The position numbers were made by a program, and so were the translations under genes. The notes beneath the pieces were generated by a model. The model was given only the letters and a program-made list of their open reading frames with translations. It ran no database searches and was not told the DNA's origin. Below are positions 8,033-18,195 of a stretch of DNA of 64,000 nt, in pieces. This DNA comes from an uncultured Clostridia bacterium. Lineage in GTDB: Bacteria; Bacillota; Clostridia; Oscillospirales; Acutalibacteraceae. How positions within the stretch are numbered: position 1 is the stretch's first letter; each line of letters begins with the position of its first letter. The stretch is from assembly GCA_944384815.1 (NCBI GenBank), contig CALWUW010000025.1, positions 153,896 to 217,895 on the forward strand, given 5' to 3'.

Positions 8033-8281
8033 AAAATAAAAAGCCCCGCCCCATACAACATGGGGCGAGGCTGTGCTCGCGGTACCACCCAATTTCAGCG
8101 GAAATTCCGCCCTTTACGCGTCTGTAACGAGCCGCCGCCCGTCGAAGCCTACTGAAAACCGGTTCAGCTCCGCCGCTCCAAAGGGAACTTCCCCGCCGCC
8201 GCCTTCGGATGTGCGCTTGCAGCCTATGACGCACACTCTCTGCCCGTGCCTTCGGAGGTACTTTCCTTTTTCCACGCGTTT
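8033..8281 (-). promoter_or_regulatory. T-box leader of pheST (tRNA-Phe sensing)
   Basis: On the minus strand the leader contains the T-box core GGGTGGTACCGCG (about 8078-8090) and a downstream terminator (8043-8071, stem GCCCCGCCCC/GGGGCGAGGC, then T-rich). Stem I carries the AGAGAG bulge region. Aligning it with the thrS leader places the specifier codon at 8187-8185, reading TTC (Phe). Uncharged tRNA-Phe should stabilise the antiterminator and allow pheST expression. Confidence 0.93.
8043..8071 (-). terminator. Attenuator hairpin of the pheST T-box
   Basis: GC-rich stem with a short loop. On the minus strand it is followed by TTTTTATTTT. It is mutually exclusive with the T-box antiterminator. 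Confidence 0.88.
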
Positions 8282-8287
8282 ACAGTC

Positions 8288-8359: not shown

Positions 8360-8641
8360 TCAGGATTTGGAGTAAAGGGTTTTGGTCTGCACCCCGGGAA
8401 GCATCCCCAGTTTTCCGGAAAGGGCGCTGATCACCGGATTGGGAGCATCCATTACAACGCTGATAATGGAAAGCTTCCTCTCCCGATAGGGAAGGCCCAT
8501 CCGCCCGATAATATATGACCGGTAGGTGTGCAGCAAGGCGTTGATTTCTTCCACGGCTTCCGGATTTTCCACCAAAATTCCGATGAGAGCAATGCGGGTA
8601 TCTTTTTCCGGGCCCTGCAATTTCTTTTCGTCCTGTTCCAT
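8360..8641 (-). CDS. TM1266-family iron-only hydrogenase system regulator
   Basis: A 93-residue protein, the usual length of the TM1266 family, which has an ACT/NikR-C-like ferredoxin fold. Visible family features are the N-terminal strand RIALIGILVENPEAVEEIN, the central RMGLPYRERKLSIISVVM and the C-terminal LSGKLGMLPGVQTKT. The family is typically encoded beside hydrogenase maturation genes and is assumed to be regulatory; its ligand is unknown. Here it is the last gene of the array, 12 bp after hydF, with AGGAGGG before the ATG. Confidence 0.85.
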   Translation of the reverse strand: MEQDEKKLQGPEKDTRIALIGILVENPEAVEEINALLHTYRSYIIGRMGLPYRERKLSIISVVMDAPNPVISALSGKLGMLPGVQTKTLYSKS

Positions 8642-8653
8642 CTTTGCCCTCCT

Positions 8654-9877
8654 TTATTCCAAAAGCGCCAATGTCTGAGGGAAAATCTCCAGGCTGCGCC
8701 TGAGGATTCCTGTCACCTGGGCGATCACCATTCCGTAATTGGAAATGGGGACTCCCTGGTCCGCCGCGCAGCGGATCCTGTATTTCATTTCCCGCTCATT
8801 CAGCATGCAGCCGCCGCAATGAATCACCATTTGATAAGGCGAAAGGTCCTCGGGGAATTCCGTCCCGCTGGTCCAAACGAATCGAAGTTCTTTTTGGGTA
8901 TAGGACCGGATCCAGGCCGGGAGCTTTTCCGTTCCGATATCTCCGCACTGCCGATGATGAGTGCAACCTTCGGAGATCAGCACGGAATCTCCGTCCTGCA
9001 GATTTTCCAGCGCCCGTACTCCTTTTACCAGCTCCTGCAGATTGCCTTTGTGCCGTGCAAACAAAATGGAAAAGGAGGTAAGGGGAATTTCCTTGGGCGT
9101 CTGCCGGGAAACATTGGCAAATGCCTGGCTGTCTGTAATTACCAGCCGGGGCGGCGTACGCAGCGTTTCCAGCGCCTGGGAAAGTTCCTCCGGCTGCACC
9201 ACAAGGCTTACCGCTCCCGCTTCCAGCGCTTCCCGAAGGGTTTGCTGCTGGGGAAGGATCAGCCGGCCTTTGGGTGCGGCTTTATCAATGGGCGTTACCA
9301 GAATCACATTGTCGGAAGGGGCGATCAGGTCCCGCAAAATAGGATATTCCGAAAGATTTTCCGGCACTAAAGCCGCCAGTTTCTCTTTCAGCTCATAAAT
9401 GTTTTCCCCGGTGGTGCAGCTGACAAACAGGACCTCCCCTCGGGGAGCGGGAAGAAGCTCCAGGGCCTTGCCTTTTTCCCGAAGCTGGTCCAGCTTATTT
9501 ACAGCGATCACATAGGGGATCCGTTTTTCCAAAAGGCGGTTTTCCATAGCTTGATCTTCCGGCGTAAAGCCTTCTTCTCCGTCCACCACCAAAACCGCCG
9601 CGTCCACTTTGTTCAGGACCTGATAGCTTCTTTTTACCCGTAAAGCCCCCAGCTCCCCCTGGTCGTCCACACCGGGGGTGTCGATAAGCACTACCGGCCC
9701 CAGGGGCAAAAGCTCCATGGCCTTCTGCACAGGATCTGTGGTAGTCCCTTTCACAGGCGAAACAATGGAAAGGGATTGCCCTGTCATGGCATTGATCACG
9801 CTGGATTTTCCGGCGTTTCGCCGGCCAAAAATTCCAATATGCACTCGATCTCCGGAAGGGGTTCCGCTCATGCTCAT
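8654..9877 (-). CDS. hydF: [FeFe]-hydrogenase H-cluster maturation GTPase HydF
   Basis: A 407-residue protein of normal HydF length. Residues ~13-170 are a TrmE/Era-type GTPase domain: P-loop GRRNAGKS (18-25), switch II DTPGVDD, and NKLD. A dimerisation domain follows. The C-terminal domain carries the FeS motif CTH...HCGGC (CxHx~50HCxxC), which ligates a [4Fe-4S] cluster. HydF is the scaffold on which the [2Fe] subcluster is assembled from HydE and HydG products before transfer to hydrogenase. Its ATG overlaps the stop of the ABC ATPase gene by 4 bp. Linkage to a nitrogenase-like operon, not to a hydrogenase or hydG, is unusual. Confidence 0.95.
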   Translation of the reverse strand: MSMSGTPSGDRVHIGIFGRRNAGKSSVINAMTGQSLSIVSPVKGTTTDPVQKAMELLPLGPVVLIDTPGVDDQGELGALRVKRSYQVLNKVDAAVLVVDGEEGFTPEDQAMENRLLEKRIPYVIAVNKLDQLREKGKALELLPAPRGEVLFVSCTTGENIYELKEKLAALVPENLSEYPILRDLIAPSDNVILVTPIDKAAPKGRLILPQQQTLREALEAGAVSLVVQPEELSQALETLRTPPRLVITDSQAFANVSRQTPKEIPLTSFSILFARHKGNLQELVKGVRALENLQDGDSVLISEGCTHHRQCGDIGTEKLPAWIRSYTQKELRFVWTSGTEFPEDLSPYQMVIHCGGCMLNEREMKYRIRCAADQGVPISNYGMVIAQVTGILRRSLEIFPQTLALLE

Positions 9878-10689
9878 CTTTCCGTTTCCTCCTTTTCCTC
9901 CGCAGGCTGAGACACCGGGAACACACAGGCATATTCCCGCTGCCCTATTTTTACTTTTTCCAGATACACCGGGATATCAAAGGCTTTTTCCAAAGACTCC
10001 CGGGTCAAAATCTCCGAAGCGCTGCCGAATACGGATGTGCCGTCCGGCAAAAGCAGCAGGGACAAATGGGAAATATCCAAAGCGTGCTCCGGGTAATGAG
10101 TGTTCAGCACGGCGGAAAGATTTTCTTCCTCACAAAGCCGGCGGATCACGTCCAGCACGATCCTCTGGTTCTTGAAATCCAGGTTAGATTCCGGTTCATC
10201 CAAAACCAGCATAGAAGGTTTCGCCGCCAAAGCCCTCGCTACCAGTACCAGCTGATATTCTCCACCGCTGATCCGGCTGCACAAACGGTCCTGAAGATGA
10301 GAGATCCCCACTCGCTTCAAGCATTGCTCCACCACGGCCCAGTCTTCGGCGCCGGGCTGCTCCCACACCCGAAGGTGGGCGCTTCTCCCCAGCACCACCA
10401 TTTCCTTTACGGTATATACAAAGGACAAAGGCTTTGCCTGGGGAACGTATCCGATCTGCTTCCAAAGCTCCCGGGAAGGGATTTTGCGCAGATCCTTGCC
10501 GTCCAGATAGGAGCCGCCGGCGCTCCAGGGAAGCAAACCCAACATACACCTCAGCAGCGTGGTTTTTCCAGCGCCGTTAGCCCCCAGTATAGAAAGAATC
10601 TGCCCGTCTTTCACAGAAAAGGATACCTTGCTGAGGATTTCCCTTCCCTGCTTGTAAGCGAAATTTCCTTCCTTCACTTCAAAGATCAT
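9874..10689 (-). CDS. FecE/BtuD-type ABC importer ATPase
   Basis: A 271-residue nucleotide-binding protein. Walker A is GANGAGKTTLL (~33-43), the signature is ISGGEYQ, and Walker B is MLVLDEPESNLD. It powers the type II importer formed with the permease and binding protein encoded just upstream. Members of this class import iron-siderophore, haem or cobamide complexes. It overlaps the permease gene by 4 bp and hydF by 4 bp, so its translation is coupled to both. Confidence 0.93.
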   Translation of the reverse strand: MIFEVKEGNFAYKQGREILSKVSFSVKDGQILSILGANGAGKTTLLRCMLGLLPWSAGGSYLDGKDLRKIPSRELWKQIGYVPQAKPLSFVYTVKEMVVLGRSAHLRVWEQPGAEDWAVVEQCLKRVGISHLQDRLCSRISGGEYQLVLVARALAAKPSMLVLDEPESNLDFKNQRIVLDVIRRLCEEENLSAVLNTHYPEHALDISHLSLLLLPDGTSVFGSASEILTRESLEKAFDIPVYLEKVKIGQREYACVFPVSQPAEEKEETER

Positions 10690-11702
10690 GTCCGGATCCC
10701 TCCTGTCTTTCGCAGCAGCCCGATGAAAAACGGCGCGCCGATAACAGCGGTGAGAATGGAAACCGGGATCTCCGCGGCGGTGGCCGAACGGGCGACGGTG
10801 TCGATCACCAGCATAAAGATGCTACCGAAGCCCATACTGGCAGGGATCACACTCTGGTTATTGTTTCCGAAAAGCATCCGGGAAACGTGGGGGATCAAAA
10901 GCCCCACCCAGCCGATCAGGCCGCACATGGAAACCACCGAGGCGGTGATCATGGCCGAGCCTAAAATCGTCAGCCAGCGAATCCGCTTTACCGGGATACC
11001 CAAAGACGCCGCTTCTTCCTCCGGCAAGCTCATGGCGTTAAGCTTCCAGCGCAGCACATACAAGATCCCCATTCCCAGAAGGATCAAAGGAGCGCCCATG
11101 AAAAGAGTCTCCCGGGTTGTGCCGGTGAGGCTTCCCATAAGCCAAAAGGTGATAGCCGGCAGAACATCCTGGGGATCCGCCGTGTATTTCACCAAAGAAA
11201 CCAGAGCGGAAAACAGCGCGCTGATAACCATTCCGGAAAGAATCATCATGATCATGGACGAACCTGTTTTCCCCTGGCCCAGGGTGTATACCAGCACTAC
11301 AGCCAGAAGTCCGGTCCCCAAAGCGCAAAGCTGCACCAAAAGCCCTGGAAGCCCCAAAAGGATCCCCAGTGCCGCTCCAAAGGAGGCTCCGGTGGCTACA
11401 CCCAGCGTATCCGGCGTAGCCAAAGGGTTGGAAAACAGCGCCTGAAATGCCCCGCCTGCGGCGCTTAGCCCGGCACCGGCCAAAAGCGCCAGCAGGATCC
11501 GGGGAATCCGGATATTAAAAATCACGTTCTGCACAGCCGCCGGCACCTCCTCCCCGGGGAAAAGCCCGGGGAAAAAGGCCTGCAAAAGCTCCCGGGGAGA
11601 GACGGCGTATCTTCCCACCATAATGGCCGCAATGGAAAGCAGCACAATCGCCCCCAATGTGCCGGCGATCCATAGTCCTTTTTTTCTGTTTGATCCTTTC
11701 AT
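10686..11702 (-). CDS. FecCD/BtuC-type ABC importer permease
   Basis: A 338-residue protein with about ten hydrophobic segments. It has the FecCD hallmarks RIPRILLALLAGAGLSAAGG and NPLATPDTLGV near the N-terminus and MCGLIGWVGLLIPHVSRM later on. I chose ATG 11702, with AAGGGAA 8 nt upstream; an in-frame ATG at 11738 would add 12 residues but has a poorly spaced site. It forms the homodimeric translocation channel for the metal-complex importer. There is only one permease gene, as in BtuC/HmuU systems. Confidence 0.92.
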   Translation of the reverse strand: MKGSNRKKGLWIAGTLGAIVLLSIAAIMVGRYAVSPRELLQAFFPGLFPGEEVPAAVQNVIFNIRIPRILLALLAGAGLSAAGGAFQALFSNPLATPDTLGVATGASFGAALGILLGLPGLLVQLCALGTGLLAVVLVYTLGQGKTGSSMIMMILSGMVISALFSALVSLVKYTADPQDVLPAITFWLMGSLTGTTRETLFMGAPLILLGMGILYVLRWKLNAMSLPEEEAASLGIPVKRIRWLTILGSAMITASVVSMCGLIGWVGLLIPHVSRMLFGNNNQSVIPASMGFGSIFMLVIDTVARSATAAEIPVSILTAVIGAPFFIGLLRKTGGIRT

Positions 11703-11764
11703 CTTCTCCGTTCCCTTCCCGCGAAATGGTTCCGCCATCTTCCCGGTCTCGGCAAGATTTTGGT

Positions 11765-12895
11765 TCAGCGCAAAAGTCCTTCCGCTTGATGGCTTTCCGG
11801 ATTGTACATTTTCTGCACCTGCTCATCCGTCAGCTCCACGCCGTAGATTTCCTTATAATAGTCCTTGACTTCCTGCTCCAGGTCGATATCGGCAAAAAGG
11901 TCCGGATATACTTTCTGCGCCATCCAAAGCAAAGTAACCGGCGTATCGGCTCCGGGAGTAAAGCTTCTGTAAGAACCCAAAGGCATTTTATACACTTCCT
12001 GGTTTTTCACCGCCTGCACCGTGCTCCAGTCCTGGCCGCCGATAGCGTTGGTGTAAAGGTCTTCCGGCATAGCCGCCGTAAAGTTGGTCAGGAATACCAC
12101 GTCCGGATCCCAAGCCAGGATCTGCTCCATATTGATCACCGCCGTGGAGTTTTCCGCTTCGATCTCCTCTGCCGCGTTCCGTCCGCCTACGGCGTCGCAC
12201 CAGAACTGCCCGAAGAAATGCTTGCCGGAAGTAATTATCTGCTTGTCATCATACTGATACAAAAACAGAATGTCTTTTTTCTCTTCTTCCTTCAGCCCGG
12301 AGACCCGTTCCTGAATGGTGTCGTAAACTTCCTGGCTGTATGCCGTTACTTTTTCCGTCTTGCTTTGCTCCGGGAAGATCTGGCTGAGGATTTGGATCCA
12401 GTTCTCAAAGGTTTCCAGCACGTCGTAATCCCATTTTCCCGTGGAAATTCCCACAGCCGGGATCCCCGCTCCTTCTAAGGCCGTCTGCCACTGGGTGTTG
12501 CCTGCCAGGTAAAAGACCACATCCGGCTCCAGCTTCATCAGCTCCTCAATGTTCAGGTCGCTGCCATTGGTATAGCCGGTCTCCGCGTTCAGGATCTCCG
12601 GGAAAATCTCTCCCAAAAGCCCCATTTCCGCCGCACTCATGGATGCCGGAGGCATACCAACGATCTTTTCCGCCGAGCCCAAATACATAGCCAGAACCGA
12701 GGGGAAGGGAAGGATTCCCACCACGGCGATACGGTCGATCTGTTTGGGAACTTCCACGGTGATCCCGCCATGGTCCACCACGGTTATGGTCTCCGATTCC
12801 TGCTGAGAGGATGAGGAAGTCTCCGAGCCGGAACATCCGGCAAGCAATGTCATCAGCAGAGTCAAGCAAAGAAACAGACTTAAAATTTTACGCAT
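11765..12895 (-). CDS. Periplasmic-binding-type lipoprotein (FecB/BtuF-like)
   Basis: A 376-residue lipoprotein. ATG 12895 follows AAAGGAG. Residues 1-~20 are a lipoprotein signal with lipobox LLAGC, then a Ser/Glu-rich linker. The mature part is a class III solute-binding protein with ITVEVPKQIDRIAV at its start and a second lobe around the middle. It captures the ligand outside the membrane for the permease. A Tyr/Phe-rich segment near LGSYRSFTPGADTP could line the ligand site. The ligand is unknown; iron complexes, haem or cobamides are the known choices for the class. It opens the transporter half of the array, 92 bp after the nitrogenase-like gene. Confidence 0.9.
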   Translation of the reverse strand: MRKILSLFLCLTLLMTLLAGCSGSETSSSSQQESETITVVDHGGITVEVPKQIDRIAVVGILPFPSVLAMYLGSAEKIVGMPPASMSAAEMGLLGEIFPEILNAETGYTNGSDLNIEELMKLEPDVVFYLAGNTQWQTALEGAGIPAVGISTGKWDYDVLETFENWIQILSQIFPEQSKTEKVTAYSQEVYDTIQERVSGLKEEEKKDILFLYQYDDKQIITSGKHFFGQFWCDAVGGRNAAEEIEAENSTAVINMEQILAWDPDVVFLTNFTAAMPEDLYTNAIGGQDWSTVQAVKNQEVYKMPLGSYRSFTPGADTPVTLLWMAQKVYPDLFADIDLEQEVKDYYKEIYGVELTDEQVQKMYNPESHQAEGLLR

Positions 12896-12915
12896 TTTTT
12901 CGTCTCCTTTTTTAT

Positions 12916-12929
12916 CCGCCTCCAGGCGG
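12916..12929 (-). other. Intercistronic hairpin before the binding-protein gene
   Basis: A perfect short inverted repeat CCGCCTCCAGGCGG lies just upstream of the ribosome binding site of the lipoprotein gene, in the only sizeable gap of the array. It is followed by A-rich, not T-rich, sequence, so it is not a terminator. It could mark an RNA-processing or stability boundary. Confidence 0.45.
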
Positions 12930-12987
12930 TTATGAATATCGGCCTGCGAATCAGAGAACAAGACCCCAAATCACAAAGCCTCATTTC

Positions 12988-14193
12988 TTACAGCAAAACC
13001 GTTTTCAGCCGGTCTTCCATCCAGCGGGAAAACGCTTCCCCCGCCAGAACCGGGATCTGCGCCCGATACATACGCCCGGAATACCCCTCATGGGGCAAAT
13101 CCACAAAGGGGATCTCTTTCCCCCGCAGGGCTCGGCGATACAGCGGGTCTGCCACAATGCAGGCCGCCTGGGGAAACTGCTCCAGAAAATCGTCTTCTTC
13201 CGCCGGAGAAAGGTCCCCCGGCTGCAAAATACCCGTTCCCCCTTCCAAGGGAGTAAGAATTTTCACGGAAGGAACTCCCGCTTCCCGCCGGAACCATTCC
13301 CGGAGAGAAGCACAAAATACCGGTTCTCCCACCAAAACAAAGGGCTTTTCTTCCGATGTCACCGATTTTTCCGGCAAATCCGGCATAAAAGCGGAGGGAA
13401 CTTTTTCTCCCCGGGCCGACGCTTTTAAAGCTTCCAGCAGCACAGAGGAAAATTTTTCTCCCAGAGGAACCCCTGTGACCCACGGCGTCCCATATTTTTG
13501 AAACAATTCCCCGGCCAACGCTTCCCCGCATTGGGAAAGCACCAAATTTACATGGGCCTTTCCGGCGCTCATCAGCTCCTCCCAGGTGCTTCCCATGGCC
13601 CAGCAGCTCTGCACCTGAAACCCGTTTTCTTCCAAAAGGCTTCGAATTGCTTCGACCGATCCGTTCACGGAAAAATCCAAAGGTGTGACGCCTAAAAGAT
13701 TCACCTTTACCGGCATTCCAGGTCTTATGGGGTCCGGCTTTACGGAAGGATCACAAAACCGCCGGGCCACCGCTGCCAGCGCCATACCGGCGCCGGAAAG
13801 GTAGGACCGCATCCCGTTGGTGGAAAACCCAAAAGCGGGAATACCGGAGCGTTTTTCGATCATCCGAGCCAGCCCGGGAAAATCCGTTCCCATCATCATG
13901 GGGATAGGCGTCCCTGCTAAAGCTACGAACCGCGGGCGCAGCTGCCGGGCGGTTTCCACCGCCTGCTGCACCAACCGTTCTTCGTCTCCCAAAACCGCCT
14001 CCATCTCCGAAAGGGCGGAAATATACACCATGGACGGCGTATGGTACCACCTTGGTTCATCGTGGGTATTGTAAGTGGAATTGCACCCGGAAGCATCGTG
14101 CATAATGGTCATGCCTCCCATTTCATATAAAGCGGAACAAACGCCGGACACATCCGCCGTATACGTGGAAAGCAATCCGCATACCTGCTTCAT
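12988..14193 (-). CDS. Nitrogenase component-1-like subunit (NifK/NflK-like, second subunit)
   Basis: A 401-residue member of the nitrogenase/oxidoreductase component 1 family. The start is ATG 14193 ([17 protein letters not shown]), which overlaps the previous stop as ATGA. Cys19 and Cys37 (in MHDASGCNSTY) match the first two cluster cysteines of the family. The place of the third, in LAGTPIPMMMGTD (about residue 95), has no Cys. Further Rossmann-like segments follow (SGIPAFGFSTNGMRS, QCGEALAGELFQKYGTPW). It is about 100 residues shorter than NifK, as in chlorophyll- and F430-type relatives. It presumably pairs with the adjacent D-like subunit and receives electrons from the NifH-like protein. 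The substrate is unknown. Confidence 0.88.
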   Translation of the reverse strand: MKQVCGLLSTYTADVSGVCSALYEMGGMTIMHDASGCNSTYNTHDEPRWYHTPSMVYISALSEMEAVLGDEERLVQQAVETARQLRPRFVALAGTPIPMMMGTDFPGLARMIEKRSGIPAFGFSTNGMRSYLSGAGMALAAVARRFCDPSVKPDPIRPGMPVKVNLLGVTPLDFSVNGSVEAIRSLLEENGFQVQSCWAMGSTWEELMSAGKAHVNLVLSQCGEALAGELFQKYGTPWVTGVPLGEKFSSVLLEALKASARGEKVPSAFMPDLPEKSVTSEEKPFVLVGEPVFCASLREWFRREAGVPSVKILTPLEGGTGILQPGDLSPAEEDDFLEQFPQAACIVADPLYRRALRGKEIPFVDLPHEGYSGRMYRAQIPVLAGEAFSRWMEDRLKTVLL

Positions 14194-15557
14194 CCGCAGC
14201 ACCCCCATCCTTTTACCTGTATAATAGCCTGGGTGTCCTTTTCCCGGGCCGCCGCTTCCTGTATCTCTTCCATCAGCCGACAAATCCCGCCGTAACCCCA
14301 AAGACTGCCACCGTCCAGAAGATTGACAAAATGGCGGGTCCCTGTAAAATATGCTGCCTTCTGCCCGATAGCCAGAACCTTGTTTCCGGCTTTCTCTTCC
14401 GGCACCCGGCTGTAGATCCCCATTTTGGGGTGCATGGTGGCAAAAAGGCGCATCCGGGGAGCATGCTGCCGAAGCCAGAGGAAATCCTCCTGTTCCTGGG
14501 AAAGAAAAGAATCCGCATACAGGGACGTAACGGTAAATCCGTGTTCTACCAGCAGCCTGGTCAGGCTCAGGATCCGGGGGGCCGCTGTGAAATCCAGGGA
14601 AATCTCAAAATCCTTAACAGCCTCCGCGGTTTTCCAAAGAGCCTGCTCCGCTTTTTCCCGGTTTTCGCTCCAATCCGGCGGAGAGGAAATCCCCAGAGCC
14701 TCTGCTGCCCGGGAAAGCTCCTTTCCGATTTCTTCCAGCCCGTAACCGAAAGACAAATGCAAATGAGGCTGCCCCAGCCGTTTTTCCAGAGTGTCCCCCG
14801 CCAGTTTGGCGGAAGGCTGGTAGGTGATATTCATCCGGCTTTTCCCCATCTCCAAATATTCCGGGTATGTACGGCAGGTGCAAATATCCCGAATGCCATA
14901 CCCGGCTTTTCGGATCAGCTGCACCAGTTCCGAATCCTCCGGGGTGGCCTGGGTATTCCCTATAAAGTTCACAAAATTATCTTTCTGTTCCCCGGGCTTC
15001 AGGAAACTGTATAGCTGCTGCCGCATTTTGGCATCCGGAGGCGTTTTGCTTTTCCGCATGATGGGATTCATGTAGCAATCTGTAAATTCCACGTCCGGAA
15101 ACCGCTGCCGCAGCTGCCCGTAAACATAGTTTAAATCGCAGCCGATAAAGTGGTGAATACAGCTAGTAAACAAAAGCACCGCTTTGGGCTTTTGGGGAAG
15201 CTTCCCCAAAATATCTTCTACACCGGAAAGGATCAGCTCTTCCATATCCCCTTGCATAACGTTCCGTTCCTGCACGGCAATGGTGGAAAAGCGATCCATG
15301 GCGCCCATTTCCGCCGCCGTCAGCACAACGCCCCGCAGACAGCCCTGGGCGCAGACAAAGATCTGATGGCTCTCCGGCAAAAGCATCCCCACATGGACAA
15401 TGTTCCAGCCTCCCCGAGCCGGCGCCGCGTATTCCAGCCCCGAAGCAAAGGGGACCGGAAACGCAGCCTGCTCCAAAGGAAGCTCCGCCCCGCTCCAGTC
15501 CACCGGCGCTCCCAAAGGGCGAATGCCGGGGAACCCTCTTTCTTTTTCGCTGTTCAT
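14190..15557 (-). CDS. Nitrogenase component-1-like subunit (NifD/NflD-like, first subunit)
   Basis: A 455-residue component-1-family protein. The ATG at 15557 overlaps the NifH-like stop (ATGA) and has AAGGAG upstream. Cys73 (VCAQGCLRG) and Cys133 ([12 protein letters not shown]) occupy the second and third cluster-cysteine positions; the first position has no Cys, though Cys69 is close. In the segment [20 protein letters not shown], which lines up with the NifD region holding FeMo-co ligand Cys275, the ligand is replaced by Tyr or Gln. The His442 region ([12 protein letters not shown]) has no His. So it is not a dinitrogenase. Its predicted role is a low-potential reductase of an unidentified substrate, working with the next gene product. 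Confidence 0.88.
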
Positions 15558-16318
15558 ACCGGCTCCTTTCCGCAAGCCGCCAGAACCTGCTTGGCCAAAA
15601 CTCTGTATCCTTCCGCCATGGGGCTTTCCGGAAACGCTTCCAGCACAGTTTTCCCCTGCTCTTCCGCCTGCTGCACCAGCGGGCTGAAATCCAGTGCGCC
15701 TACCACCGTGGTTTTCAGGTCTTCCGCCAATTCCTGCACTTTTTCCTCTTCCCGGGGAACGCCTCTGCGGTTTAAAATCACGCCTGCCAAAGTGGCGTAC
15801 CCTCTGGAAGAAAAATGCTCCACGGCCGCGGCAATATTGGCCGCCGCATGAATGGCCATATTTTCCCCGGAAGTCAGCACAAACACATTTTCCGCGTATC
15901 CTTCCCGAATGGGCATGGCAAAGCCGCCGCAGACCACATCTCCCAGAACGTCATACAGCACAACGTCCGGCTGATACACCTGGAACGCATGGGCTTCTTC
16001 CAGGCATTCCAGCGCGGCGATGATCCCCCTTCCGGCACAGCCCACTCCCGGGGTGGGCCCGCCCGCTTCCACGCAAAGGATCCCGGCGCAGCCTTCCGTC
16101 ACCAATTCTTCCAGAGCCGCCTGCTTTCCCTTTTCCCGGAGAATTTCCAGCACGGTTTTTACCGGCTTGCCGCCCCGGAGCAATACGGTGGAATCCGCTT
16201 TGGGATCACATCCTACCTGCATCACCCGCATTCCCTGCTGGGCAAAAGCCACAGAGAGATTGGAAACCGTGGTGGATTTTCCAATGCCGCCTTTTCCGTA
16301 TATTGCCAGCTTGATCAT
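15554..16318 (-). CDS. NifH-like ATP-dependent reductase (iron protein)
   Basis: A 254-residue NifH/BchL/CfbC-family protein, slightly shorter than NifH. It has the P-loop GKGGIGKST (8-16), GCDPKADST, the cluster ligand Cys94 in [12 protein letters not shown] with the conserved Arg97 (ADP-ribosylation site in NifH), and the second ligand Cys130 in [14 protein letters not shown]. Two such chains bridge one [4Fe-4S] cluster and pass electrons to component 1 with ATP hydrolysis. Its ATG overlaps the hydE stop by 4 bp and its stop overlaps the D-like start by 4 bp, so it is firmly part of the same operon. All catalytic residues are intact. Confidence 0.94.
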
Positions 16319-17415
16319 AGCGTTCCTTCCTTTCCGGGGTAATCTCCCCGACCAACCACCATTTCATAACCAATGCTCCGAAAGCTTTCCCGAAGTTCCC
16401 GAAGGCTTTCGCCGATTTCTCCCTTGGATTCGATTTTCCCGTCATACAGCCTGTACTTTTTCCTGGCCTCTTCGGGGGAAATGTTAGGCATGACCACATT
16501 GGCTCCCGCCAGGATCCCCTGCTCTCTGCCGTCCGGCGCTATGGTTCCCAGAGCGGTGGTTGCCGGCAGAAGCACCCGGGGGTGCATCAAGCGAATCAGG
16601 CTTAAAAGGAACAGCACATCTTCCAGCTTCCCCGGGGGAAAGGCTTTAAAAGGCGTCTGCCCATGGGGAATAAACGGGCCAATCCCGATCATCTGAGGCT
16701 GGAAATCCTGCATATACAAAAGGTCCTGAGCCAGATGCTCCGCCGTCTGATACGGCGAACCCACCATGCAGCCGCACCCGGTCTGATACCCGATCTCTTT
16801 CAGATCTTCCAGGCACTGCATTCGGTGGGCCAGGGAAAGCTCCGGCGGATGCAGCTTGGCGTAATGCTCCGGGCATGCTGTCTCGTGGCGAAGCAGATAG
16901 CGGTCCGCTCCGGCTTCAAACCAGCGCCGGTAAGTCTCTTTTTCTTTTTCGCCCAGGGAAAGCGTCACAGCGCAGTCCGGGAAACGGGCTTTGATACGTT
17001 TCACCAGATCTTCCACCGCCCGATCGTCCCAGAAAGGATCTTCCCCTCCCTGGAGCACGAAGGTCCGAAATCCCGCTTCATATCCCCATGCACAGCCCTC
17101 CAGGATCTCCTGGGGAGTAAGACGGTAGCGGGGGGCTTGCCGGTTGCTCCGCCGAATACCGCAATAGAGGCAATCGTTTTTGCAGATATTGGAAATTTCC
17201 AAAAGCCCCCGGATATAGATGCCGTTGCCAAAACAGCTTTGAGAGATTTTCCTGGCTTTCTCTCCGGCGAATCGGCGGTCCTCCGGGGTATAGGAGGACA
17301 AAAGTGCTGTCAGCTCTTCTTTGGAAAGACGTTCTCCTTTTTCCAAACGAGAAATTTTCTCCCGGTTAATCAAGGATGTTTCTTTTAAATTTCTCTCATT
17401 TTTCTCATCCCGCAT
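16315..17415 (-). CDS. hydE: [FeFe]-hydrogenase H-cluster radical SAM maturase HydE
   Basis: A 366-residue radical SAM protein. I chose ATG 17415 (MRDEKNERN), with AAGGTGG 5 nt upstream; longer in-frame starts overlap a terminator. The CX3CX2C motif is CKNDCLYC (Cys78, 82, 85), inside [19 protein letters not shown], typical of HydE. TIM-barrel signatures LQGGEDPFW and [16 protein letters not shown] follow; the latter matches the HydE substrate cavity. HydE makes part of the [2Fe] subcluster in hydrogenase maturation. It is first in an operon that continues directly into nitrogenase-like genes. No hydG lies in the window, so this copy could serve hydrogenase, the nitrogenase-like enzyme, or both. 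Confidence 0.93.
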
Positions 17416-17494
17416 AGTTTCCACCTTCTTCTCCCATTCTGTGGAAAATCTTTTCAGAAAGCGGAAACTGCCTTTCCGCTCTTTTTCACCCATA

Positions 17495-17527
17495 GAAAAA
17501 GCCCTTTTGCCGAAAGGCAAAAGGGCT
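17495..17527 (-). terminator. Terminator inside the hydE leader
   Basis: A 12-bp perfect stem (AGCCCTTTTGCC, GAAA-type loop, GGCAAAAGGGCT) is followed on the minus strand by TTTTTC. It lies between the promoter at 17728-17756 and the hydE start at 17415, so it acts as an attenuator rather than an operon end. The AAAGGGC unit of the stem recurs at 17529-17535 and 17538-17544, exactly 9 nt apart. Confidence 0.85.
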
Positions 17528-17721
17528 GAAAGGGCATAAAGGGCACAAAGAAACAAGGCCTGTTCCAGATCCTACGTCTTCCGACTCCGAAGCAAATCAT
17601 CGTCAACTCAGAACGCACATACATTTAATTTTTTCAAGTGAGGGCAATGCAGGCAGACACTTTCCCCGAAACCGTCCGGAACAAACCATTCCGCCCGGGC
17701 AAAAAGCGCTGCTGTTCTTCT
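17500..17721 (-). promoter_or_regulatory. Unassigned structured leader RNA upstream of hydE
   Basis: About 220 nt of transcribed leader separate the promoter from the attenuator. On the minus strand AGGTGAG near the 5' end can pair with CTCACTT about 90 nt later, closing a domain. An inner hairpin CGGAA/TTCCG and several G-rich segments lie within it. The layout (closed domain, linker, terminator) is that of a riboswitch or protein-binding attenuator. I matched it to none of the riboswitch consensus motifs I know, and it has no T-box motif. Confidence 0.55.
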
Positions 17722-17727
17722 CACCTC

Positions 17728-17756
17728 ATCATAGCACAGAGAAAAAAGGAATACAA
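17728..17756 (-). promoter_or_regulatory. Sigma-A promoter of the hydE-nflHDK operon
   Basis: TTGTAT (17751-17756) and TATGAT (17728-17733) have a 17-bp spacer and an extended TG before the -10 box. It sits just after the stop of the ACT-domain gene, making the array an independent transcription unit. Confidence 0.85.
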
Positions 17757-17763
17757 GAGCCAA

Positions 17764-18195
17764 TTACAGCTCGGAGAGATCCTCCTGGCAAATCAGATGA
17801 ACACGATTGGCTGCCAGAACATCCACCGCCTTTTCATTGTCCTCCACCCGAAATACCATATAGGCCACTCCCGCTTTCCGGGTGATAAACGCATAGGTAT
17901 ATTCCAGATTGATGCCGTTGTTTCCTAGGATCTCCAGGATGCTGTCCAGCCCACCGGCCTCATCCGGCACTTCCGCCGCCAAAACCGGCGTGATGGAGCA
18001 GATATACCCGGCTTCCTTCAAAACACAGGCTGTTTTATAGGAATCGTCTACGATCAGGCGCAAAATGCCGAAATCCGGCGTCTCCGCGATGGAAAGCGCC
18101 CGCATGTCGATTTGATTCTCCCGAAGCACCTTGGTCAGGCCGGAAAGGCGCCCGGGTTTGTTCTCCAAAAATACAGAAATTTGCTTAACCGTCAT
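17764..18195 (-). CDS. Tandem ACT-domain protein
   Basis: A 143-residue protein made of two ACT domains (about 1-70 and 72-143). The first begins KQISVFLENKPGRLSGLTKVL, the second around DSILEILGNNGINLEYTYAF; both keep the Gly and Leu of the ACT ligand-binding turn. Such proteins bind amino acids. This small form is commonly encoded beside phenylacetate-CoA ligase in anaerobes, as here (62 bp downstream of that gene), and is assumed to sense an aromatic or branched amino acid. Confidence 0.85.
   Translation of the reverse strand: MTVKQISVFLENKPGRLSGLTKVLRENQIDMRALSIAETPDFGILRLIVDDSYKTACVLKEAGYICSITPVLAAEVPDEAGGLDSILEILGNNGINLEYTYAFITRKAGVAYMVFRVEDNEKAVDVLAANRVHLICQEDLSEL

Follow-up and report, generated by a model that had tools for sequence, protein, structure and literature searches.

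HydG is taken to supply the H-cluster of [FeFe]-hydrogenases with its CO and CN- ligands. In the textbook route it forms both from tyrosine and provides them as an Fe(CO)2(CN) synthon; at the end of that route HydF is followed by the hydrogenase HydA. In [NiFe]-hydrogenases, the Fe(CN)2CO unit is built by HypCDEF. As described in PMC11736057, HydG yields [Fe(Cys)(CO)2(CN)], which HydE converts by reduction and dimerisation before it passes to HydF. A published survey (PMC9431212) found no HydG in five of the eight Clostridium acetogens that it covers. In four of them, C. ljungdahlii, C. ragsdalei, C. coskatii and strain AWRP, it reports HydE, HydF and HypCDEF with neither HydG nor HypA/HypB detected; the fifth, C. 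carboxidivorans, has HypAB without HydG. The survey proposes an atypical HydG candidate, and in it neither the absence of HydG nor the occurrence of HypCDEF without HypAB in four of the five HydG-less acetogens has a firm explanation.

The locus described here lies in a 64,000-nucleotide stretch of DNA (the window) from an uncultured Clostridia bacterium of the family Acutalibacteraceae (assembly GCA_944384815.1, contig CALWUW010000025.1). On the minus strand, from 17415 to 8360, it holds a nine-gene operon of about 9 kb that brings together the H-cluster maturases HydE and HydF, a TM1266-family protein, a nitrogenase-like enzyme, NflHDK, and an ATP-binding cassette (ABC) importer. Judged from gene content and distribution, this operon is probably a HydG-independent supply line for the assembly of the H-cluster, and the product of the Nfl enzyme is quite likely to be destined for HydA. 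In the titles and abstract openings listed by searches of the open-licence literature, a body that takes in subscription journals and preprints only in small part, nitrogenase-like genes are not linked to HydE/HydF or to the loss of HydG.

Recurrence of the gene set

When 300 genomes of the same family were searched with NflD, matches were obtained in 16, including the window's own genome, and 16 stretches were taken from the other 15. Two genomes of the same genus (G031, G155) have a gene order identical to that of the window, and parts of it are found on short contigs of G124 and G216. Five genomes have different arrangements (G043, G221, G047, G166 and G243), with Hyp genes in the last three. 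G170 has a distant Nfl enzyme and an importer, and the remaining five (G095, G213, G051, G008 and G152) have other nitrogenase-like or nif genes.

In a collection of named genomes, 335 stretches encode relatives of NflD, and the locus counts given below use the best 80 of them. By their contig titles, these 80 come from Bacillota (Clostridia, Negativicutes and Loigolactobacillus), Synergistaceae and Lentisphaeria, and in 61 at least one of HydE, HydF and TM1266 (at least 40% identity) is encoded beside the Nfl genes. The set thus recurs in other genera and, as far as titles tell, in other phyla, as expected if the genes form a system of their own, which the preliminary description had proposed from this genome alone. 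The combination of Nfl enzyme, importer and HydE/HydF is a conserved and distinct system. Loigolactobacillus rennini (L126 and L187), a relative of the lactobacilli, has a HydA-domain protein together with Nfl, importer, HydE, HydF and TM1266.

Absence of HydG and retention of HydA

The best HydG match in the window's genome (2.0 Mb in 37 contigs, 92.6% complete) scores 62 bits against a cut-off of 312 and is located inside hydE. The two genomes of the same genus, which are 99-100% complete, are likewise without HydG, and in the family draw as a whole HydG (TIGR03955) stays under its cut-off in nine of ten genomes of the strict Nfl clade. HydF is over its cut-off in 153 of the 300 genomes and HydG in 141. 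Within the 153 HydF-positive genomes, 8 of the 10 with Nfl lack HydG, a count that includes the distant-clade G170 and excludes G243, where HydF is under its cut-off, vs 8 of the 143 without Nfl (Fisher p 8e-8).

A separate draw of 393 members of the class, with completeness of at least 90%, gives a similar picture. The Nfl profile matches 25 of them at E 1e-60, and HydG is found in 241 at E 1e-90. With a strict Nfl line of E 1e-130 or better, set after the matches were seen, HydG is present in none of 19 strict Nfl genomes vs 241 of 374 others (p 7e-9); with all 25 Nfl genomes, the figures are 4 of 25 vs 237 of 368 (p 2e-6). Among the named genomes, of which 50 were covered out of the 80 loci, HydG is present in 6/50 and a HydA domain in 48/50. 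The exchange can be followed within single genera: six genomes of g186 have Nfl without HydG and four have HydG without Nfl, and such pairs also occur in g257 and g307 of the class draw and in g43 and g132 of the family draw.

No hidden HydG was found in the 50 named genomes. Matches below the cut-off score no more than 222 bits and do not extend past position 392 of the 470 in the model, leaving the C-terminal part unmatched, and the stronger ones are presumably ThiH. In C. ljungdahlii, the search gives a single weak match of 68 bits. Genome comparison gives good support to the view that an Nfl-based system takes the place of HydG.

HydA is kept in the window's genome, where PF02906 has three matches, and the cluster motifs TSCSPGW, MPCTAKKFE and EIMCCPGGC are all present in one of these proteins. 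Anaerobutyricum (Eubacterium) hallii DSM 3353 (L151) has five HydA-domain matches, no HydG over the cut-off and no [NiFe] large subunit; part of PMC5593888 calls E. hallii H2-producing and has strain DSM 3353 itself in culture.

Exchange of the importer for HypCDEF

Importer and Hyp genes do not occur together in the 80 loci: 48 have an importer (at least one of its genes at 40% identity or more), 23 have Hyp genes (one or more of them with an identity of 45% or above), none has both and nine have neither. Seven of these nine are contigs of at most 12 kb, and the other two (L148 and L152) have an Nfl2-Hyp block elsewhere in the genome. This block, NflH2-NflD2-NflK2-HypF-HypC-HypD-HypE, is present in whole or in part, with no importer gene, in C. 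ljungdahlii, C. carboxidivorans, C. ragsdalei and A. hallii, and also in loci of Anaerostipes, Megamonas, Megasphaera and Lentisphaeria. The C. ljungdahlii proteins score over the NCBIfam cut-offs for HypF (772 bits), HypC (71), HypD (392) and HypE (417). All 25 HypE rows listed end in PRIC, with the terminal Cys. With simple motif patterns, one HypD pattern is missing in 11/21 rows and one HypF pattern in 4/24.

Of 69 genomes searched, 31 have HypD and 12 have a [NiFe] large subunit. All 25 genomes of the Nfl2-Hyp type have HypD, and 18 of them have no [NiFe] enzyme; of the seven that do, four have a second HypD. A further 35 entries belong to the strict clade and are of the importer type, except for G124, whose contig ends earlier (G043 and G330 are one genome). 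Here HypD is present in five, the same five in which a [NiFe] large subunit scores weakly; two of these, G155 and G333, were read, and their Hyp proteins share only 36-42% identity with the Nfl2-linked set. The last nine entries are G170, without HypD, and eight genomes with HydF and neither HydG nor Nfl, among which G105 has HypD.

The nitrogenase-like enzyme

NflHDK falls under the curated cut-offs of the nitrogenase, Cfb and Bch families. For nitrogenase itself the scores are 319 bits vs 394 (NifH), 44 vs 654 (NifD) and 18 vs 427 (NifK), the last two both on NflK. For CfbCD of F430 synthesis they are 311 vs 402 (CfbC) and 18 vs 268 (CfbD), and for the dark-operative protochlorophyllide oxidoreductase (DPOR) and chlorophyllide oxidoreductase (COR) they are 193/345 (BchL), 175/331 (BchX), 26/324 (BchN), 44/490 (BchB) and 19/529 (BchZ). 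NflH, in particular, is below the NCBIfam cut-offs for NifH, CfbC, BchL and BchX. Tetrapyrrole reduction, which the likeness to DPOR and CfbCD had brought up, was set aside as a lead since none of these cut-offs is reached; the neighbouring genes were annotated gene by gene only in part.

Both cluster-Cys motifs are present in 86/88 NflH/NflH2 rows, some of which represent one genome twice. Cys70, Cys74 and Cys134 of NflD (the numbering starts one residue before the ATG) are invariant in 33 rows, as is Cys37 of NflK in 31. Cys134 has a counterpart in NifD and another in BchN, and Cys37 has one in NifK; these partner Cys residues have cluster roles, that of NifK in the P-cluster. The profile alignment places no NflD Cys opposite the MCHRS stretch of NifD, the Cys of which is the ligand of the FeMo-cofactor. 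The C-terminal tail of NflD (window 14190-14230) has a conserved IQxKGWGCxxC consensus that is not found in the NflD2 consensus and possibly binds metal.

AlphaFold models of NflD and NflK each have a mean predicted local distance difference test (pLDDT) score of 85. The NflD model fits the folds of NifEN, nitrogenase and Mar, and the NflK model those of NifE and BchB; at the level of profiles, the match of NflD to Mar structures is weak (24 bits). In a quick tree of 66 NflH rows, the 39 strict rows, with importer and Hyp types mixed, form one clade with a support of 98 in the SH-like approximate likelihood ratio test (SH-aLRT), distinct from the Nif rows, a siderophore-linked Nfl group and Nfl2. 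The distinct placement foreseen for these proteins is upheld in part, for NflH, with respect to the Nif rows and a single BchL row on a very long branch, in a tree that left out the Cfb, Mar, Isr and Nfa rows. Single frames of 923-941 residues in L032 (16249-19020) and L033 (7898-10723), in which an NflK match overlies an NflD match, are likely natural fusions of NflD and NflK.

Organization of the operon

The features of the operon are collected in Table 1. Profile matches bear out the families named for all nine products in the preliminary description, and all nine genes lie on one strand. The operon is compact, with 4-base overlaps at five junctions and gaps of 92, 26 and 12 bases at the other three; seven of the eight junctions are tight, where six had been counted. 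The start of hydE is an ATG picked from the sequence, and the protein matches solved HydE chains with 284 bits. A single strong promoter had been described upstream; a consensus scan of minus strand 17415-17764, a kind of scan that can miss promoters, finds no promoter-like site, and a terminator-like hairpin is present there instead. At the downstream end the operon abuts a T-box leader at 8058-8283 on the minus strand (Rfam RF00230, 105 bits), which is followed by phenylalanyl-tRNA synthetase genes.

Table 1. Genes and other features of the operon, in window coordinates
Feature	Coordinates	Strand	Evidence
HydE, radical S-adenosylmethionine (SAM) H-cluster maturase, 366 aa	16315..17415	-	TIGR03956 536 bits, cut-off 255
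NflH, nitrogenase-like Fe protein, 254 aa	15554..16318	-	PF00142 295 bits
NflD, nitrogenase-like component 1 subunit, 455 aa	14190..15557	-	PF00148 79.5 bits
NflK, nitrogenase-like component 1 subunit, 401 aa	12988..14193	-	PF00148 108.5 bits
Substrate-binding lipoprotein (Peripla_BP_2), iron-complex/cobalamin-type ABC importer	11765..12895	-	PF01497 76 bits; lipobox LLAGC
FecCD/BtuC-type permease	10686..11738	-	PF01032 281 bits
Importer ABC ATPase	9874..10689	-	PF00005 108 bits
HydF, GTPase scaffold for H-cluster assembly	8654..9877	-	TIGR03918 562 bits, cut-off 326
TM1266-family putative regulator, iron-only hydrogenase systems	8360..8641	-	TIGR03959 112 bits, cut-off 61
Terminator-like hairpin, 12 pairs + T-tail, upstream of hydE	17500..17527	-	Consensus match only

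In two relatives, a further gene ties the locus to H-cluster assembly. The gene directly after hydF encodes an aspartate ammonia-lyase in the Megamonas locus L136 (540 bits) and the Megasphaera locus L139 (566 bits; cut-off 510); the two other post-hydF genes of the four checked, in L148 and L149, match no family. In the part of PMC11736057 that deals with it, aspA is a common neighbour of hydF and an ammonia source for the bridging ligand of the H-cluster. When 41 Nfl-linked HydE sequences, the window's included and some genomes entered twice, are compared with a small set of 5 HydG-linked ones, no column is at least 90% conserved on both sides and yet different. A specialization of HydE for a new substrate was rejected on this ground; lacking a distinguishing column, HydE in the Nfl loci probably has an unchanged substrate.

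Proposed pathway

Taken together, the lack of HydG and the alternation between importer and HypCDEF suggest an Nfl enzyme that works for HydE and HydF in making the H-cluster. The reverse, in which HydE and HydF make a cofactor for the Nfl enzyme, had also been considered and, on the same two observations, probably has the direction wrong. The mutual replacement of the importer and the Nfl2-Hyp block is most simply read as a sign that both deliver equivalent products, namely an iron complex that carries cyanide and possibly CO as well; that the imported and the Hyp-made compounds are indeed equivalent has about an even chance. NflHDK, which both types of locus have, may then perform a low-potential, ATP-driven step before HydE. 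The earlier idea of an imported metal complex on which a low-potential reductase acts is plausible; its tetrapyrrole version has found no support.

The source would be a low-spin iron complex already bearing cyanide and/or carbonyl. In loci of the window's type, it would be taken up through the FecBCD-type importer; in C. ljungdahlii, A. hallii and others, it would be made in the cell by NflH2D2K2 together with HypF, HypC, HypD and HypE. NflHDK, an ATP-driven two-component reductase with no Cys ligand for a FeMo-cofactor, would convert this complex into a form that HydE accepts, or else would supply the missing CO by reduction. Either role, whether the reduction or remodelling of an iron complex or the supply of CO, can be assigned to NflHDK only tentatively. 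HydE and HydF would then complete the [2Fe] unit and deliver it.

Alternative explanations

Several observations weigh against a supply line of this kind, and some of them favour other explanations. The three genome sets overlap in part, and the statistics ignore kinship. Eight of the 153 HydF-positive genomes have neither a HydG nor an Nfl match (G038, G105, G108, G119, G151, G202, G207 and G257). In the stretches read, which cover all of these except G151, G202 and G257 have HydE, HydF and TM1266 at their loci (L181 and L183), G119 has a HydE-HydF-TM1266 locus (L180) with a HydE-like protein of 31% identity, G038, G108 and G207 have only HydF, and G105 has a Hyp set, its HydF-bearing contig lying outside. 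In the Nfl-positive G243, HydF is not over its cut-off, perhaps because a contig ends there. PMC9431212 ascribes a HydG to C. autoethanogenum; according to the same paper, the [FeFe]-hydrogenase HytABCDE1E2 was purified from this species. On the same side stand the distant Nfl clade (NflD about 30-34% identical; L035 and L223-L228), in which NflHDK and the importer have no adjacent HydE or HydF and HydG is present in 4/6 genomes of the class draw and in G170, and a related NflHDK in a siderophore operon on a plasmid of Sporomusa termitida (L229, 4949-13080). The latter lies between iron permeases with an ATPase and an alpha/beta-hydrolase, with TonB receptors close by, and is possibly a nitrogenase-like enzyme for ferric siderophores. 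Because the distant clade mostly keeps HydG, Nfl and importer have some role that is independent of HydG loss. These two cases, together with an importer family that is that of iron complexes, would fit a unit for iron acquisition, in which a ferric chelate is imported and reduced by NflHDK to free its iron, the hyd genes are merely co-regulated, and the loss of HydG is a side effect or compensated. This explanation is unlikely, since it accounts neither for the near-absence of HydG nor for the replacement of the importer by HypCDEF and a second Nfl enzyme.

The absence of HydG is explained equally well if NflHDK itself makes the diatomic ligands, CO from a source such as CO2 or both CO and CN- from a small N-C compound, with the importer or the Hyp proteins giving cyanide or an iron carrier. 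CO2, cyanate and thiocyanate are all substrates for reduction by nitrogenases and Fe proteins, and the Hyp proteins would give cyanide from carbamoyl phosphate; this version, however, leaves the cargo of the importer unexplained, and NflD lacks the Cys ligand of the FeMo-cofactor type. It is a chemical variant of the HydG-independent supply line, so that the chances of the two overlap, and by itself it is a possibility that we rate well below even. HydE and HydF could also have been recruited to make a different Fe-CO/CN cofactor for another enzyme, HydA being left unmatured or matured in another way. In its favour, HydG and strict Nfl occur together in the six named genomes counted above and in G216, and four of 24 genomes searched for HydA (G002, G003, G009 and G021, with loci L062, L074, L072 and L080) have PF02906 matches without HydF or HydG over the cut-off; both facts also count against the supply line. 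In these four, the last of the cluster motifs is present in all, the middle one in three (not G003), and the first was examined only in G002 and G003. HydA was set aside as proof of maturation on account of these four genomes, which indicate that its presence alone proves no maturation route. Nevertheless, a HydA domain is missing in only 2/50 named genomes, an aspartate ammonia-lyase gene comes after hydF in L136 and L139, PMC5593888 describes A. hallii as a producer of H2, and the search for another client gene gave none. When 240 unnamed neighbouring open reading frames (ORFs) of at least 150 residues from the 80 loci were clustered, none was found in more than seven loci; the four listed members of the seven-locus cluster are minus-strand ORFs near or over Nfl genes, and the one member checked of the next cluster, in five loci, is a MATE transporter. 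A different cofactor is accordingly improbable. Mere coincidence, in which operon shuffling set the maturases beside an unrelated Nfl-importer unit, could draw on the variable gene order and on the 19/80 strict loci with no HydE, HydF or TM1266 in the stretch covered, which detract from the supply line as well; it is scarcely credible given an association in many genera and, by titles, several phyla, in varied orders, together with the anticorrelation with HydG.

Implications

If the HydG-independent supply line is true, the missing genes behind the HydG-less acetogens are named, an uncharacterized nitrogenase-like group gains a role, and the maturation chemistries of [FeFe]- and [NiFe]-hydrogenases are joined, which is relevant to gut bacteria and to gas-fermenting Clostridia. 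An Fe-cyanide/carbonyl complex might even be shared between species, such that Hyp and Nfl makers provide it and HydG-less neighbours import it through a dedicated ABC importer, complete it by means of a second nitrogenase-like enzyme and build their [FeFe]-hydrogenases. This extension is rather doubtful; if it were true, HypCDEF would serve both classes of hydrogenase and a diffusible Fe-CN/CO metabolite would be present in the gut.

Comparison with known systems

The operon shares with HydE-HydF-HydG maturation a HydE, a HydF and a TM1266 protein over their curated cut-offs, and the named genomes share its target HydA; it differs in that HydG is mostly absent and either NflHDK with an importer or Nfl2-HypCDEF is present. 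The Hyp proteins of C. ljungdahlii resemble those of the HypCDEF pathway in passing the curated cut-offs, as does HypE in its C-terminal Cys, while their genes are linked to nitrogenase-like genes and most of the genomes concerned lack a [NiFe] large subunit. The binding protein, permease and ATPase of the window all match the Pfam families of FecBCD/BtuCDF importers, even though no substrate-specific NCBIfam cut-off is reached among the matches listed.

Like the Group IV enzymes (CfbCD, MarHDK, IsrHDK and NfaHDK), NflHDK consists of a NifH-like protein and component 1 subunits, and its NflD model fits Mar and NifEN; unlike them, it has other gene neighbours and stays under the CfbC/CfbD cut-offs, and the tree was built apart from Cfb, Mar, Isr and Nfa rows. 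The window proteins are far under the BchL, BchN and BchB cut-offs of DPOR, whereas the model of NflK resembles BchB, and NflHDK is likely similar to DPOR in having an inter-subunit cluster and no FeMo-cofactor.

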